A stretch of 43,178 nucleotides of DNA from a virus. Position numbers and translations under genes: made by a program. The notes under the pieces were generated by a model, which was given only the letters and a program-made list of their open reading frames with translations, was not told the DNA's origin and did no database searches. This document shows positions 26,376-33,783 of this stretch, one piece after another. The DNA lies in IMG/VR virus record IMGVR_UViG_3300027844_002548, positions 1-43,178 of that record. The stretch is one strand, 5' to 3'. Each line of letters opens with the position of its first letter. Position 1 is the first letter of the stretch.

Positions 26376-26395
26376 TCATTACAAATATATATCTT

Positions 26396-26403
26396 GGTAA
26401 ATA
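26396..26403 (+). promoter_or_regulatory. Late-promoter-like octamer before the CCA-adding-type gene
   Basis: GGTAAATA on the plus strand, one mismatch from NATAAATA, then exactly 5 bases and the ATG at 26409. The spacing equals that of the minus-strand leaderless late promoters. Confidence 0.4.
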
Positions 26404-26408
26404 TATGT

Positions 26409-27605
26409 ATGAGAGCATTAGAATTTTTAGTTGAGGCACAAGAAAAACTAGATAGTGACGAATTTAAACAAATTCTTACTGCTGGTGTAGTTTCACTCGG
26501 TAACCTTTTTCATAAAAACGGATTTGAACTACGTATTGTTGGTGGTGCAGTTCGAGACCTAATGCTTGGCAAATTGCCCAAAGATACAGACTTAGCATCA
26601 GATGCTACACCAGACGAAATGGTTGAAATGTTTGAAAAGGGCAATATTAAGTATATTCCAACAGGATTACAGCACGGAACAATTACCGCTGTAATTAATA
26701 AAGAACAATTAGAAATTACAACGTTACGTGCAGACGCAGAACATACTGGTAGACACGCTACTGTTGAATTTATACGTAGTTGGGAAGAAGATGCTAAACG
26801 CAGAGATTTAACATACAATGCTATGTCATTAGATTTAGACGGTACAGTATATGATTATTTTAATGGAGCAAATGACTTACAAGATAAAGTAAGTAAATTT
26901 GTAGGTGAACCGGAACAACGTATACAAGAAGATTATTTAAGAATTTTGCGCTACTTTAGATTCCAAGGACGCATTAATAATCCTACTTGGGAGAAAGATA
27001 CATTAGATGCTATAAAAAGCAATGTTAAAGGTTTAACACAAATTTCTGGTGAACGTATATGGATGGAAATGCAAAAGATACTGTTAGGTAACAATGTAAA
27101 AGACATATTAGTACATTTAGAAAAAACAGGCGTTACAAAAAATATTAATCTACCATTAGATGATATTGCACTAGCAGAAAAAGTTAGTACAATGCAAAGT
27201 CCTATTGTTCCTTTAGCAAGTCTTATGCGTAATATAAAAGATGTAGACGCGATAGGTAATGCATGGAAACTATCAAATGCAGAAATGCAACTTTTATCTT
27301 TTTTAACTGAATTTAAAAATACACCTCTAACACAGCAAAGTGCAGAAGAATTTTTAGTTGATGAAACTCATCAATATTTTGTTTATGCTCTTGCTAAAAT
27401 ACAAGACAAAGATGCTATTGCAAATCATATTAGAAGTTGGCAAGTACCAGAATTTCCTGTAACAGGAAAAGACTTAATTAGTGCAGATGTAAAACCTGGT
27501 CCTAACATGGGTGCTTTACTAACAAAGTTACGAGACGAATGGAAGTCTAAAAACTACAAACCTAGCAAAGAAGAATTATTATCAACAGTGATCGATGAAC
27601 GGTAA
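26409..27605 (+). CDS. CCA-adding enzyme / poly(A) polymerase family protein with capsid-targeting-like leader
   Basis: A 398-residue class II nucleotidyltransferase. RIVGGAVRDLMLG (GG at 45-46, RD at 49-50), DTD (D59, D61), TTLRADAE, RRDLTYNAM (131-139), EDYLRILRYFRF and SGERIWMEM are the ordered motifs of bacterial tRNA nucleotidyltransferases and poly(A) polymerases. It would add CCA (or A) to RNA 3' ends. The ATG at 26409 is used; an in-frame TTG at 26394 is less likely. The leader MRALEFLVEAQEK fits the capsid-targeting pattern, and LVE|A fits the prohead protease site. It is on the plus strand, convergent with the tRNA and synthetase genes. Confidence 0.85.
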   Translation: MRALEFLVEAQEKLDSDEFKQILTAGVVSLGNLFHKNGFELRIVGGAVRDLMLGKLPKDTDLASDATPDEMVEMFEKGNIKYIPTGLQHGTITAVINKEQLEITTLRADAEHTGRHATVEFIRSWEEDAKRRDLTYNAMSLDLDGTVYDYFNGANDLQDKVSKFVGEPEQRIQEDYLRILRYFRFQGRINNPTWEKDTLDAIKSNVKGLTQISGERIWMEMQKILLGNNVKDILVHLEKTGVTKNINLPLDDIALAEKVSTMQSPIVPLASLMRNIKDVDAIGNAWKLSNAEMQLLSFLTEFKNTPLTQQSAEEFLVDETHQYFVYALAKIQDKDAIANHIRSWQVPEFPVTGKDLISADVKPGPNMGALLTKLRDEWKSKNYKPSKEELLSTVIDER

Positions 27606-27876
27606 AGATCCATACGATTATAGTAGGCAAATACAAACTGGTAAAAGTATGGGCGAGTTCGGAGATGTAGATACAACACGAACCATAGGAAAACAAGGAT
27701 GGAAAGTAAAAATAGAGACAAACCCAAGAAAGAAAAAAAGAAGCCGAAGAAGCCTAAGTCTTAAAATTAAAAACTGGCTCCGGAGGAAGGATTCGAACCT
27801 TCACGCCCTGCCAAGGACACTGAGTAAACCGCCCAGCATGTCTACCAATTCCATCACTCCGGAACAAATTCTTTAG
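27595..27876 (+). CDS. Possible small basic protein, antisense to a tRNA in its second half
   Basis: An open frame of 93 codons whose ATG overlaps the end of the CCA-adding gene by 11 bases. Residues 1-50 look protein-like (DPYDYSRQIQTGKSMGEFGD, then GWKVKIETNPRKKK). From about residue 62 the frame runs antisense through the tRNA gene, and that part is probably not under protein selection. A second frame offers a 21-codon Lys/Pro-rich peptide ending at 27762, so a -1 shift near 27700 could end the real protein there. Treat it as a doubtful gene. Confidence 0.35.
   Translation: MNGKDPYDYSRQIQTGKSMGEFGDVDTTRTIGKQGWKVKIETNPRKKKRSRRSLSLKIKNWLRRKDSNLHALPRTLSKPPSMSTNSITPEQIL
27775..27863 (-). tRNA. 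Class II tRNA with anomalous anticodon loop (GUU at the anticodon position)
   Basis: An 89-base tRNA with encoded CCA. Acceptor stem UCCGGAG/CUCCGGA pairs fully, discriminator G73. The D arm contains GAAUUGGUAGA. The anticodon stem is CUGGG/CUCAG and the T arm GAAGG-UUCGAAU-CCUUC. The long variable arm (UGUCC-UUGGCA-GGGCG) and D loop are of the tRNA-Leu kind. The anticodon loop is CGGUUUA (27825-27831). Positions 34-36 read GUU (Asn), but position 33 is G rather than the near-universal U, and position 37 is U rather than a purine. G73, U1-A72 and GUU agree with bacterial tRNA-Asn. All stems are intact, so decay is unlikely. It starts 9 bases after the synthetase-like stop codon. Confidence 0.85.
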
Positions 27877-28703
27877 AACAAGTTACACATTTCCATTGCA
27901 CGAATAAATCTAGTCATTCCAATGCCGCCGCCTACACGTGGTATAAAATCATGACTTAAAAATTCGTCCAATTCTTTGTTAACTCTGTCCTTGCCAAACG
28001 TTCCATGCAACAAACTAGCATATTGCCCATCACTAATTGTGTGAAACATATCATGCATTTCTGTTGTATCTGCTGACCGTTCTGCAGAACCAATTGTTTC
28101 TTGTCCACAAATAATTACATCAATTTTTGCGGCTGTTCCATCACCATTTTGTTTCATGTTCCAAAATGGACTTGTGTAATTTGGAAAGTTTCGAATCATT
28201 TGTACATTACCGTACTTTTCATACATTGCAGTTTCTTCTGCATGTGTTAATTCTTCAACGCCAAATTCCGCTGACCAATCAGTGTAATCTTTTGATGTAA
28301 TTGCATCAATTGATGAAAAGCCTACTGCTTCGCATAAATCCAATTCCATTCGATATAAGTCATTAATATCCCCTGGCATTTCGAATTCAAACATAGGAAA
28401 TATAAGATCATGCCTACCAGGTATAGCATTAGGCTCTTGCCTATATGATGTTGAGACACAAAAAAAGCCCGGAACCTCAGGCTTAGTAAGTAACTCGTAT
28501 TCTAACCACATCTGTCCTGTTTGCGGTAACGGCCAAACTTGGCCGGCGTAATTATATGTTGAGACAGTTGTTGGATCTTCGCATGCCGCTAATATACTTA
28601 AACGATTTTGCGTATGTACTTCTTGAAATCCTTTGTTCAAAAAAAAGGACCGTAAACGGCCCACGCTATCCGTGAATTTCTCCGGATTAATAAGTTGTGT
28701 CAT
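27873..28703 (-). CDS. Truncated class II AsnRS/AsnA-like synthetase
   Basis: A 276-residue catalytic core of the Asp/Asn class II synthetase family. Visible are FFLNKGFQEV (motif 1 region, 20-29), SYRQEP with RHDLIFPMFEFE (motif 2, R88, E90, R97), KIDVIICGQETIGSAERS (193-210, the AsnRS-like GEIIGGSQR region) and VGGGIGMTRFIRAME (motif 3, R265). The GGGIG form also resembles asparagine synthetase A. The N-terminal OB-fold anticodon-binding domain of AsnRS is absent. It should activate an amino acid with ATP; transfer to tRNA or ammonia cannot be decided. A late promoter (28761-28768) precedes it, and the tRNA follows in the same transcript direction. Confidence 0.8.
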   Translation of the reverse strand: MTQLINPEKFTDSVGRLRSFFLNKGFQEVHTQNRLSILAACEDPTTVSTYNYAGQVWPLPQTGQMWLEYELLTKPEVPGFFCVSTSYRQEPNAIPGRHDLIFPMFEFEMPGDINDLYRMELDLCEAVGFSSIDAITSKDYTDWSAEFGVEELTHAEETAMYEKYGNVQMIRNFPNYTSPFWNMKQNGDGTAAKIDVIICGQETIGSAERSADTTEMHDMFHTISDGQYASLLHGTFGKDRVNKELDEFLSHDFIPRVGGGIGMTRFIRAMEMCNLF

Positions 28704-28775: not shown

Positions 28776-29738
28776 TCAATAACCGTAAGGTATAATTACA
28801 TAATGTATTGCCAATACTATTCCAACTGAAACTATTAATCCTAACATCATTTTAAGAAAGTCTCTTCCTACAATTGGAAATACGTGCTTGAATTTATAAT
28901 TTTCCATAACAGTTGATATAGCAAGTTCTCGTCCACATAGCAATCCAACAAACACCCAAGTTGTACTCATAGGAATGTCATTTAATTCTTTAAAGAATAA
29001 CAATATGAATGCATAAACTAAATTAATTATTGTTGCTGATCGAACATACCTAGTGCCTGTTTTTTCTAAAACAATTTCTTGAATTTTGCCGCCATGTTCT
29101 CGAAATGTATATCCTAAGAACACTACAAATACAACAGATATAAAAAGCATCCATTCTATAGACAATGCTCGTGGGAGGAATACAGCAATATTTGCCATAT
29201 CGTGTGATAACCAAGTATACCATAAAAACCCAGTTGTGCCCCATTGAGCAACACGCCAATATCTTTTATGGTGTTCTTTTACTTTATCATGTTTTTCATC
29301 AATTAATCGTTCTAAAACAATCCATAAACAATACGCAACAACTGCGGCCAATGCATAACCCATAACAGATTTTACAAGCATTTTTTCCAATACAAATGTA
29401 CTAGCAAATGCCGATAACACTAGGAATGAGGTTGAAACTGGAACGCCTATTCGCGTTAACAATAAAAGTATGGCTGGTGCTGTAGCATGATACCATTGCA
29501 CTTCTTGAAATGGTATTTTATTTAATCTACCAAATGATATATCACCTGCATTAATATACCACCCATACCACATAGTTATTAATAGACCAATCGAAGCGGC
29601 GGCCCATAAAGTATACCATTTAAATTTTTCTGAATTTGATGCTAGCCATGGACCTAAGGTTTGTACACTATCATTAGCAACAACAGAATATGCGGCTAAC
29701 ATAAAACCTAGGATCATCCATAACAAAGTTATATCCAT
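28776..29738 (-). CDS. PiT-family phosphate permease
   Basis: A 320-residue integral membrane protein with about nine hydrophobic segments. Family signatures are AYSVVANDSVQTLGPWLAS near the N-terminus (the GANDxxN-type repeat), VSTSFLVLSAFAS, LSHDMANIAVFLP and IPMSTTWVFVGLLCGRELA, which are the two inverted PiT repeats. It would import inorganic phosphate (ion-coupled) into the host during infection, meeting the phosphate demand of DNA replication. Phage- and virus-borne phosphate transporters are known from marine systems. A weak GGAG precedes the ATG, and the terminator at 29755-29789 separates it from upstream transcription. No clear promoter of its own is visible. Confidence 0.82.
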   Translation of the reverse strand: MDITLLWMILGFMLAAYSVVANDSVQTLGPWLASNSEKFKWYTLWAAASIGLLITMWYGWYINAGDISFGRLNKIPFQEVQWYHATAPAILLLLTRIGVPVSTSFLVLSAFASTFVLEKMLVKSVMGYALAAVVAYCLWIVLERLIDEKHDKVKEHHKRYWRVAQWGTTGFLWYTWLSHDMANIAVFLPRALSIEWMLFISVVFVVFLGYTFREHGGKIQEIVLEKTGTRYVRSATIINLVYAFILLFFKELNDIPMSTTWVFVGLLCGRELAISTVMENYKFKHVFPIVGRDFLKMMLGLIVSVGIVLAIHYVIIPYGY

Positions 29739-29754
29739 ATATTATAAAGACTCC

Positions 29755-29789
29755 AAAAAAAAAGCGAGTGACTATTTCTAGTCACCCGC
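29755..29789 (-). terminator. Rho-independent terminator of the small RNA unit
   Basis: GCGGGTGACTA-GAAA-TAGTCACTCGC followed by nine T on the minus strand; an 11-base stem with one G-U pair and a GNRA-type loop. It isolates the phosphate permease gene from upstream transcription. Confidence 0.92.
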
Positions 29790-29924
29790 CTAAAAGTTAA
29801 CTAAACACTCGCTCGTTATTGTTACGTCTGTGACAATTAACAATCATACCGTGTTATCTTTTACTTAATACTTCTAATTTCATCATTATAGTGTTTAGCG
29901 TATCGCGATTGATGCCTATGCATC
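29764..29924 (-). ncRNA. Candidate structured small RNA under a late promoter
   Basis: About 160 bases between a consensus late promoter and a strong terminator, with no convincing gene inside (best frame 20 codons). Predicted RNA pairings: a 5' hairpin GAUGC-AUAG-GCAUC starting at the expected first base; a 9-base long-range helix CUAAACACU (29890-29898) with AGUGUUUAG (29801-29809); inside it, AUUGUUA (29838-29844) with UAACAAU (29818-29824); and the terminator stem. GCGAGUG just upstream of the terminator can also pair with its 3' arm, giving an alternative fold. No known RNA family is recognised. Confidence 0.6.
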
Positions 29925-29929
29925 AATGT

Positions 29930-29937
29930 TATTTATA
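29930..29937 (-). promoter_or_regulatory. Consensus T4 late promoter of the small RNA
   Basis: TATAAATA on the minus strand, placed directly after the stop codon at 29938. Predicted +1 is about 29924, the first base of the 5' hairpin. Confidence 0.75.
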
Positions 29938-30348
29938 TTAAAGTATATTCTCTCTTGCAAGAATTTGTTCATCTGTATCAGTTAACTCTACCGAAGATCC
30001 AACATTTAATTCTAAAATCTTTTCACTAATTGTTACTCTCTCCTTGCGAAGATCTGATAACTTTGATTGAAAAGATTCCATACCGTGACGTACAAGTTTC
30101 TCATAACGTCCGATTAAATTATTAAGTTGGACTCGTTTTGTTAATAGCGTACTAACACCCGTTTCAACGTTTGCTTTACCAACTTTATCACGCAAACTAT
30201 ACAATACAGATTCAACCTCTTCTAGATGGGTTAATTTCTGTTCTAAATCGGCGGTCTCTTCACCTTGGCCGTGAGCAAGATTAACATCTGATACCGCTTG
30301 ACGAATTTGCTCTTGCAAAGTTGCGGCTCTACGTAAATTGATTTTCAT
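29938..30348 (-). CDS. Coiled-coil protein of unknown function
   Basis: A 136-residue, mostly helical protein with extended coiled-coil character (ADLEQKLTHLEEVESVLYSL and KLSDLRKERVTISEKILEL). The middle (GKANVETGVSTLLTKRVQLN) resembles short conserved proteins in the early region of marine T4-like phages, and there is a passing likeness to DIP1984-type proteins. It has its own near-perfect sigma-70 promoter and AAAGGAG before the ATG at 30348. Being next to UvsY, UvsX and gp32, it may belong to the recombination set, but no motif shows this. Confidence 0.55.
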   Translation of the reverse strand: MKINLRRAATLQEQIRQAVSDVNLAHGQGEETADLEQKLTHLEEVESVLYSLRDKVGKANVETGVSTLLTKRVQLNNLIGRYEKLVRHGMESFQSKLSDLRKERVTISEKILELNVGSSVELTDTDEQILARENIL

Positions 30349-30382: not shown

Positions 30383-30411
30383 ATTATATACTATGTTTAT
30401 CAACTTGTCAA
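30383..30411 (-). promoter_or_regulatory. Consensus sigma-70 early promoter
   Basis: Perfect TTGACA (30406-30411), 17-base spacer, perfect TATAAT (30383-30388) on the minus strand; AAAGGAG lies between it and the ATG at 30348. Confidence 0.9.
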
Positions 30412-33429: not shown

Positions 33430-33783
33430 TCAAATCTCATCAGAATCAACTATTTCCATATCTGCTTTAACTTTTGGAAATGCTGAATGATCTGGTAGAT
33501 CATCCTTAACTGTAAACATTAATTCTTTTACTCTTTCTAGTGATTTATCTTTTGGTGTAATAGTACCGGAGTAAATTGTATCATGATGATAATCAGCAAT
33601 AATTTCATTGTCGTCGGCTTCAAGTACTTGCCATTGCTTAATAGCATTAGTTAAAATTGCATCAACAACATCTTTTTTACTATCTGCAACCCAAGAACGA
33701 CCAGGACGGGCAACGTCTAATACAATGTATTGCGTTTCCTCTTCCTCTTGTATAGTCTCGTTTAATAAATCATTGAGTTTCAT
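33430..33783 (-). CDS. Small protein with capsid-targeting-like leader
   Basis: A 117-residue acidic protein. The leader MKLNDLLNETIQEEEE is the cleanest example of the shared leader in this region. The body (TQYIVLDVARPGRSWVADSK, then VDAILTNAIKQWQVLEADDN) reads as a small alpha/beta domain that I cannot name. The late-promoter octamer TATAAATA (33789-33796) lies exactly 5 bases before the ATG, and no good Shine-Dalgarno sequence is at normal spacing, so a leaderless late mRNA is predicted. An internal head location is inferred from the leader. Confidence 0.55.
   Translation of the reverse strand: MKLNDLLNETIQEEEETQYIVLDVARPGRSWVADSKKDVVDAILTNAIKQWQVLEADDNEIIADYHHDTIYSGTITPKDKSLERVKELMFTVKDDLPDHSAFPKVKADMEIVDSDEI

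Follow-up and report, generated by a model that had tools for sequence, protein, structure and literature searches.

A candidate structured late small RNA encoded near uvsY in uncultured marine phages of one T4-like clade

The DNA stretch analysed here, hereafter the window, is the 43,178-nucleotide IMG/VR virus record IMGVR_UViG_3300027844_002548, a 43-kb record of a T4-like phage that carries genes for uvsX, uvsY, a single-stranded-DNA-binding protein and a T4-type terminase. A segment of its minus strand (29757-29924) is predicted to specify a small RNA of about 165 nt, counted from the predicted +1 to the end of the U-tract and defined by the spacing of a late promoter and by a covariance-model match. 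From sequence comparison, it is very likely that this RNA is real and previously undescribed, and that compensatory changes have kept its long-range closing helix, P1, intact among its relatives. With less assurance, we favour the view that it is an independent structured late small RNA that acts in trans, has its own promoter and terminator and belongs to uncultured marine phages of one T4-like clade. A purpose-built RNA had been suspected at this site in a sequence-only reading of the window, and the helix, the promoter position and the terminator, found in about eight lineages that share no conserved reading frame, now support this idea well.

Distribution of the RNA and covariation of P1

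The RNA was always found behind h136, a gene for a 136-amino-acid protein (29938-30348, minus strand) that follows uvsY and has no match in Pfam, PHROG or NCBIfam. A search of IMG/VR with the h136 protein yielded 28 loci, to which an alignment-based search for further h136 loci in the same database added none. The covariance model R1 matches all 28 of these loci (one is cut off by a contig end), a set that includes the training sequences of the model. In the window, which was itself in the training set, R1 matches 29757-29903 at 77 bits. Fourteen sequences representing about eight lineages were aligned for comparison. All of them have three features: an octamer resembling a late promoter at the stop codon of h136 (degenerate in one sequence), a P1 of 10-13 bp and an intrinsic terminator.

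No h136 gene was found in GenBank phages or, when sought as a host clue, in GTDB genomes, and outgroup uvsY loci contain neither h136 nor an R1 match. Scanning IMG/VR with a DNA pattern of the conserved loop core (described below) recovered the architecture at the same h136 loci only, and a 71-amino-acid gene that lies downstream of the RNA in relatives, when used as bait, led to the same contigs only. Two weak matches were examined as possible second copies in the same genomes, and neither is a copy of the RNA element. Judging from IMG/VR and from the h136 searches of GenBank phages and GTDB genomes, the family appears to be confined to uncultured contigs of one phage clade.

Covariation identified the two arms of P1 in the window as GCUAAACACU (5' arm, 29890-29899) and AGUGUUUAGU (3' arm, 29800-29809), both on the minus strand, which form nine Watson-Crick pairs and one G-U pair. 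Nine bases of the 3' arm are the same in the relative L087 (AGUGUUUAG, identical in both), and the 5' arm of L087 differs by two pairing-neutral changes. Over the 175 cells of P1 in the 14-sequence alignment, the paired fraction is 93.1%, and both sides have changed at 10 of the 13 pairs, in 33 cells. None of 500 shuffles reached the observed paired fraction, number of doubly changed cells or covariation score, and pairing dropped to 34-46% when the partner was slid by 1-3 columns. Because related sequences can mislead column shuffles, null alignments were also generated by R-scape-like simulation on a tree (60 simulations). At the position of P1, pairing in these tree-aware nulls never exceeded 75%, and no more than 9 cells were doubly changed; across whole simulated alignments, the best 13-bp helix reached no more than 82% and 11 cells. 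The sequence-only reading had named covariation in related phages as a check on its proposal, and P1 lies above both the shuffled and the tree-aware nulls. When the pairs are considered singly, 9 of the 13 have p < 0.05, three survive correction for 13 pairs and none survives correction over all column pairs. P1 includes G-U pairs; therefore, pairing in RNA fits better than an inverted repeat in DNA.

The folding energy, which had likewise been suggested for comparison with shuffled sequence, was less informative. The whole stretch gives z = -4.2, but most of this value is supplied by the terminator, without which z is -1.2 to -1.4 (relatives, -0.8 to -2.2). Single-sequence folding energy was therefore rejected as evidence, because it is not significant without the terminator.

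The RNA region of the window shares 95% identity with that of its sister sequence L086, and P1 is unchanged. The corresponding nucleotide identities are 95% for the downstream permease gene, 96% for uvsY and only 83% for h136, a clade-specific gene that changes faster than these neighbours. The non-coding stretch has changed less than the adjacent gene h136 and is therefore probably under constraint. A coding role for the RNA was rejected, because no short frame is common to the lineages and the longest frames differ from lineage to lineage. The frame beginning MHRHQSRYAK, which the sequence-only reading had named as a short frame whose coding conservation would refute its proposal, is present only in the window and its sister sequences L006 and L086 (hereafter the window clade), and its single difference from L006 alters an amino acid. 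A frame of 26 amino acids (MSVVKGLIRTIKNILAKIVLTFGKLG in L089) was also observed in L089 and L098, where it starts about 5-9 nt after the RNA start and looks amphipathic. The differences between its two versions are mostly amino-acid-changing, and it is broken in the other lineages.

Promoter, loop core and terminator

The stop codon of h136 (TAA, 29940-29938, minus strand) is followed directly by TATAAATA (29937-29930, minus strand), and the consensus sequence noticed at this place before is thus an exact T4-type late promoter octamer. Since the late octamer of T4 occupies -13 to -6 (PMC1524935), the same placement of TATAAATA puts the predicted +1 at 29924. The octamer at the h136 stop codon is mostly TATAAATA in the relatives as well and is AATAAATA in L094 and L097; the T at -13 varies among T4-like phages (PMC1524935). 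L087 has a degenerate octamer, TATAAGAC, with the spacing still exact. A late octamer with no more than one mismatch is present at the same position in 11 of the 12 sequences listed. TATAAATA occurs five times in the window, in all five cases on the minus strand and in intergenic DNA, even though non-coding DNA makes up only about 5% of the window. This intergenic bias is weaker in other records of the clade, where some of the sites overlap with a stop codon.

The first base of P1 coincides with the predicted late +1, or lies 1 nt from it, in all lineages outside the window clade. The window clade itself has a 5' hairpin at +1, and its P1 begins only 25 nt downstream of that position. This hairpin (GAUGC-AUAG-GCAUC; 29911-29924, minus strand), identified by folding and comparison, consists of five perfect pairs and begins exactly at the predicted +1, as the sequence-only reading had described; it is, however, specific to the window clade and does not belong to the common structure.

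The arms of P1 are separated by a loop of about 75-90 nt, of which 41-53% is A. The length of the loop is variable while a core is kept, which has the sequence AUGAUUGUUAAUUGU in the window (29833-29847, minus strand) and AUACUUGCUAA(NN)UUGU elsewhere, and which is the most conserved stretch of the loop in the alignments. In the consensus fold, no second helix within the loop is supported by covariation. A 7-bp hairpin located inside P1 in the window (29818-29844, minus strand), in which AUUGUUA (29844-29838) pairs with UAACAAU (29824-29818), overlaps the core; it is restricted to the window clade and has no counterpart in the consensus fold. The earlier description of a long-range helix enclosing a 7-base hairpin therefore applies to the family as far as P1 is concerned, but the inner hairpin is a property of the window clade.

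The intrinsic terminator (29755-29791, minus strand) comprises 13 pairs (29791-29762) that lead into a tract of nine Ts (29763-29755), in agreement with the terminator previously noted about 165 bases on. Relatives have a terminator at the same place with a different sequence, and their predicted RNAs are about 135-145 nt long.

Proposed function and alternative explanations

The comparison of relatives supports P1, the placement of the promoter with P1 at the predicted +1, the terminator and the conserved loop core as features of the predicted RNA. We infer any mechanism beyond that of a late structured small RNA. Transcription would start late in infection from the RNA's own late promoter and stop at its own terminator. 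P1 (or the 5' hairpin) may hide the 5' end and the terminator hairpin may protect the 3' end, which would make the RNA stable and leave its A-rich loop exposed and mostly unpaired, with the UUGCUAA-UUGU core as the putative active site. This core would most likely act in trans by pairing with phage or host mRNAs, with protein binding as the main alternative; trans base pairing ranks highest among the functions we considered, and protein binding ranks next. A more far-reaching version is that of a dedicated late-class regulatory RNA, in which the closing helix locks the 5' end from the first transcribed nucleotide onwards and the exposed UUGCUAA core reprogrammes an mRNA or protein of phage or host late in infection. 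We put this version forward only tentatively.

Several observations weigh against an independent trans-acting RNA. The RNA has been predicted from sequence alone, and no relative is known outside the clade of uncultured T4-like marine phages. When phage translation starts were scanned for duplexes with the core, the best of 38 gene clusters was not significant. (The best-ranked, non-significant partner across relatives was a 117-amino-acid gene, located at 33430-33783 on the minus strand of the window, with a late octamer 6 nt upstream.) ARN-type Hfq motif runs are present but not enriched, with 256 of 1000 dinucleotide shuffles scoring as high. Furthermore, a held-out model, R2, built from 11 sequences that excluded the window clade and L087, recovered L087 at E = 2e-8 and found the window at the right place, but with only 23.6 bits and E = 0.08, equal to an unrelated match in the same search. 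Because this match is weak, the homology of the window sequence rests on its position, on the near-identity of its P1 to that of L087 and on the models that included the window. Although not proven by the model alone, it is very likely that the window-clade RNA is homologous to the rest of the family.

Among the alternatives, a protein-binding RNA, in which the clamped loop would serve a phage or host protein as decoy or scaffold (a nuclease, for example, an RNA-binding repressor or, as with 6S RNA, RNA polymerase), seems rather unlikely but is the strongest. A stable closing helix that displays a short conserved single-stranded motif is suitable for this role, the core is kept although the loop length varies, and the antisense target search yielded no target. 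However, no similarity to 6S RNA or any other Rfam family was detected at E values up to 10 beyond sub-threshold chance matches, and there is no second conserved helix to shape a binding site. The RNA could also be a 3' untranslated region (UTR) produced by read-through from a consensus sigma-70 type promoter upstream of h136 (TTGACA-17-TATAAT; 30383-30411, minus strand). In that case, the h136 (or uvsY-h136) mRNA would end in this structured 3' UTR with its terminator, which would affect stability or termination in cis, and the late octamer would be incidental. The invariable position behind h136, a gene with its own consensus promoter, and the fact that neither was found without the other fit this explanation. 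We nevertheless consider it improbable, because the octamer in 11 of 12 sequences together with a P1 that starts so close to +1 outside the window clade would be unexpected, and because TATAAATA is otherwise rare and intergenic in the window. The A+T-rich DNA beside uvsY is reminiscent of an origin comparable to oriF of T4, or ori(uvsY), which consists of a promoter and a downstream unwinding element (PMC3016281), and the transcript might accordingly form an R-loop. However, T4 oriF is driven by a middle promoter, and its R-loops form independently of any specific sequence (PMC3016281), whereas a late octamer and a covarying P1 with G-U pairs are kept here; a DNA-level element of this kind has the least to recommend it.

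The remaining alternative concerns the PHO4-like phosphate permease gene (28776-29738, minus strand), which starts 16 bases past the T-tract of the terminator in the window. The sequence-only reading had considered a leader that controls read-through into this gene. Only the window, contigs nearly identical to it, L006 and L086 have the permease gene behind the RNA; it is missing from the other whole records that were checked. In the other lineages examined, the 71-amino-acid gene lies downstream of the RNA with its own TTGACA-TATTAT promoter-like sequence, so that the RNA has the appearance of a separate unit. Scanning with R1 revealed no such RNA at the permease loci of other phages. The segment GCGAGUG (29812-29806), which had been thought able to pair alternatively with the terminator arm, is indeed exactly complementary to the 3' arm of the terminator in the window, a point in favour of a leader or attenuator. 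This 7-nt match is, however, limited to the window: it is broken even in L006 and L086 (GCAAGUG), where 5 nt match at another site, and the pairing is absent elsewhere, with matches of 0-6 nt. Because the permease is downstream in the window clade only, control of this gene is not supported as the original role of the RNA, and we regard a leader or attenuator function as highly improbable.

Part of the proposal may nevertheless hold in the window clade. A conserved GGAG is located there directly after the T-tract and before the permease gene, and a promoter scan found no permease promoter; for these reasons, some transcription probably passes the terminator, unless a promoter went unrecognised. 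The permease gene would be a cargo that landed directly behind the terminator of the RNA, and leakage through this terminator probably also feeds the permease gene, allowing its partial expression. Relatives of this permease are very widespread, being encoded in at least 597 IMG/VR stretches, mostly in contexts unlike that in the window.

Several genes next to the permease gene are related to tRNA. A 276-amino-acid class II tRNA-synthetase-like protein (27873-28703, minus strand; PF00152) is encoded adjacent to a tRNA-Asn gene (27775-27863, minus strand). The protein shows weak NCBIfam similarity to AsnRS and asparagine synthetase A, belongs to PHROG 29758 (function unknown) and has no sequence match in the PDB; a relative of it in L069 is likewise paired with tRNA-Asn. 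A gene for a CCA-adding tRNA nucleotidyltransferase (26394-27605) is located on the opposite, plus strand, so that the tRNA, the synthetase-like protein and the CCA enzyme are grouped beside the permease. In addition, a terminator-like hairpin followed by eight Ts (28647-28662, minus strand) was observed within the start of the synthetase-like coding region.

Relation to known RNAs and significance

At the gathering threshold, Rfam gave no match in the window and ten relative loci. At permissive thresholds (E up to 10), weak matches such as those to GibS and STnc320 appeared, which are far below the cut-offs and cover the terminator region. The RNA is thus a new family of an already known kind, the phage-encoded small RNA. 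RNAC and RNAD of T4 are likewise small non-coding RNAs of a T4-type phage, the role of which is unknown (PMC3014915); their sequence relation to the present RNA was judged by the absence of an Rfam match only. PreS of lambda and VpdS of VP882 are small phage RNAs that act on mRNAs (PMC12197685), the same action that we propose here. These RNAs (about 88 and 50 nt, respectively) are from other phages and are Hfq-dependent (PMC12197685), whereas the present RNA exceeds them in length, is preceded by a late-type promoter and is clamped by a long-range helix. The structured RNAs wcaG, manA, PhotoRC-II and abiF of marine T4-like phages were recognised via comparative genomics or Rfam, and wcaG and manA have been described as cis-regulatory elements (PMC2864571, PMC9964418). 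Unlike these, the present RNA is terminated before the next gene and keeps its place when the next gene changes, and none of their Rfam models matches it. As in 6S RNA, a large open loop is closed by a long-range stem, but 6S RNA is not matched even at E up to 10, and the loop of the present RNA is A-rich without a conserved apical helix.

These results indicate that reading raw sequence and then comparing relatives can reveal phage RNAs that are absent from Rfam. According to a 2010 review of post-transcriptional control in T4, no small trans-acting regulatory RNA from this phage had been functionally characterised, and the genomes of its relatives might suggest candidates (PMC3014915). The RNA described here is a candidate of the type foreseen in that review, and because covariation supports it, its 5' end is predicted and a short core is conserved, its function is directly testable. 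If it is indeed a dedicated late regulatory RNA, it would represent a small RNA family without known relative, possibly with a mode of action undescribed for this phage group.
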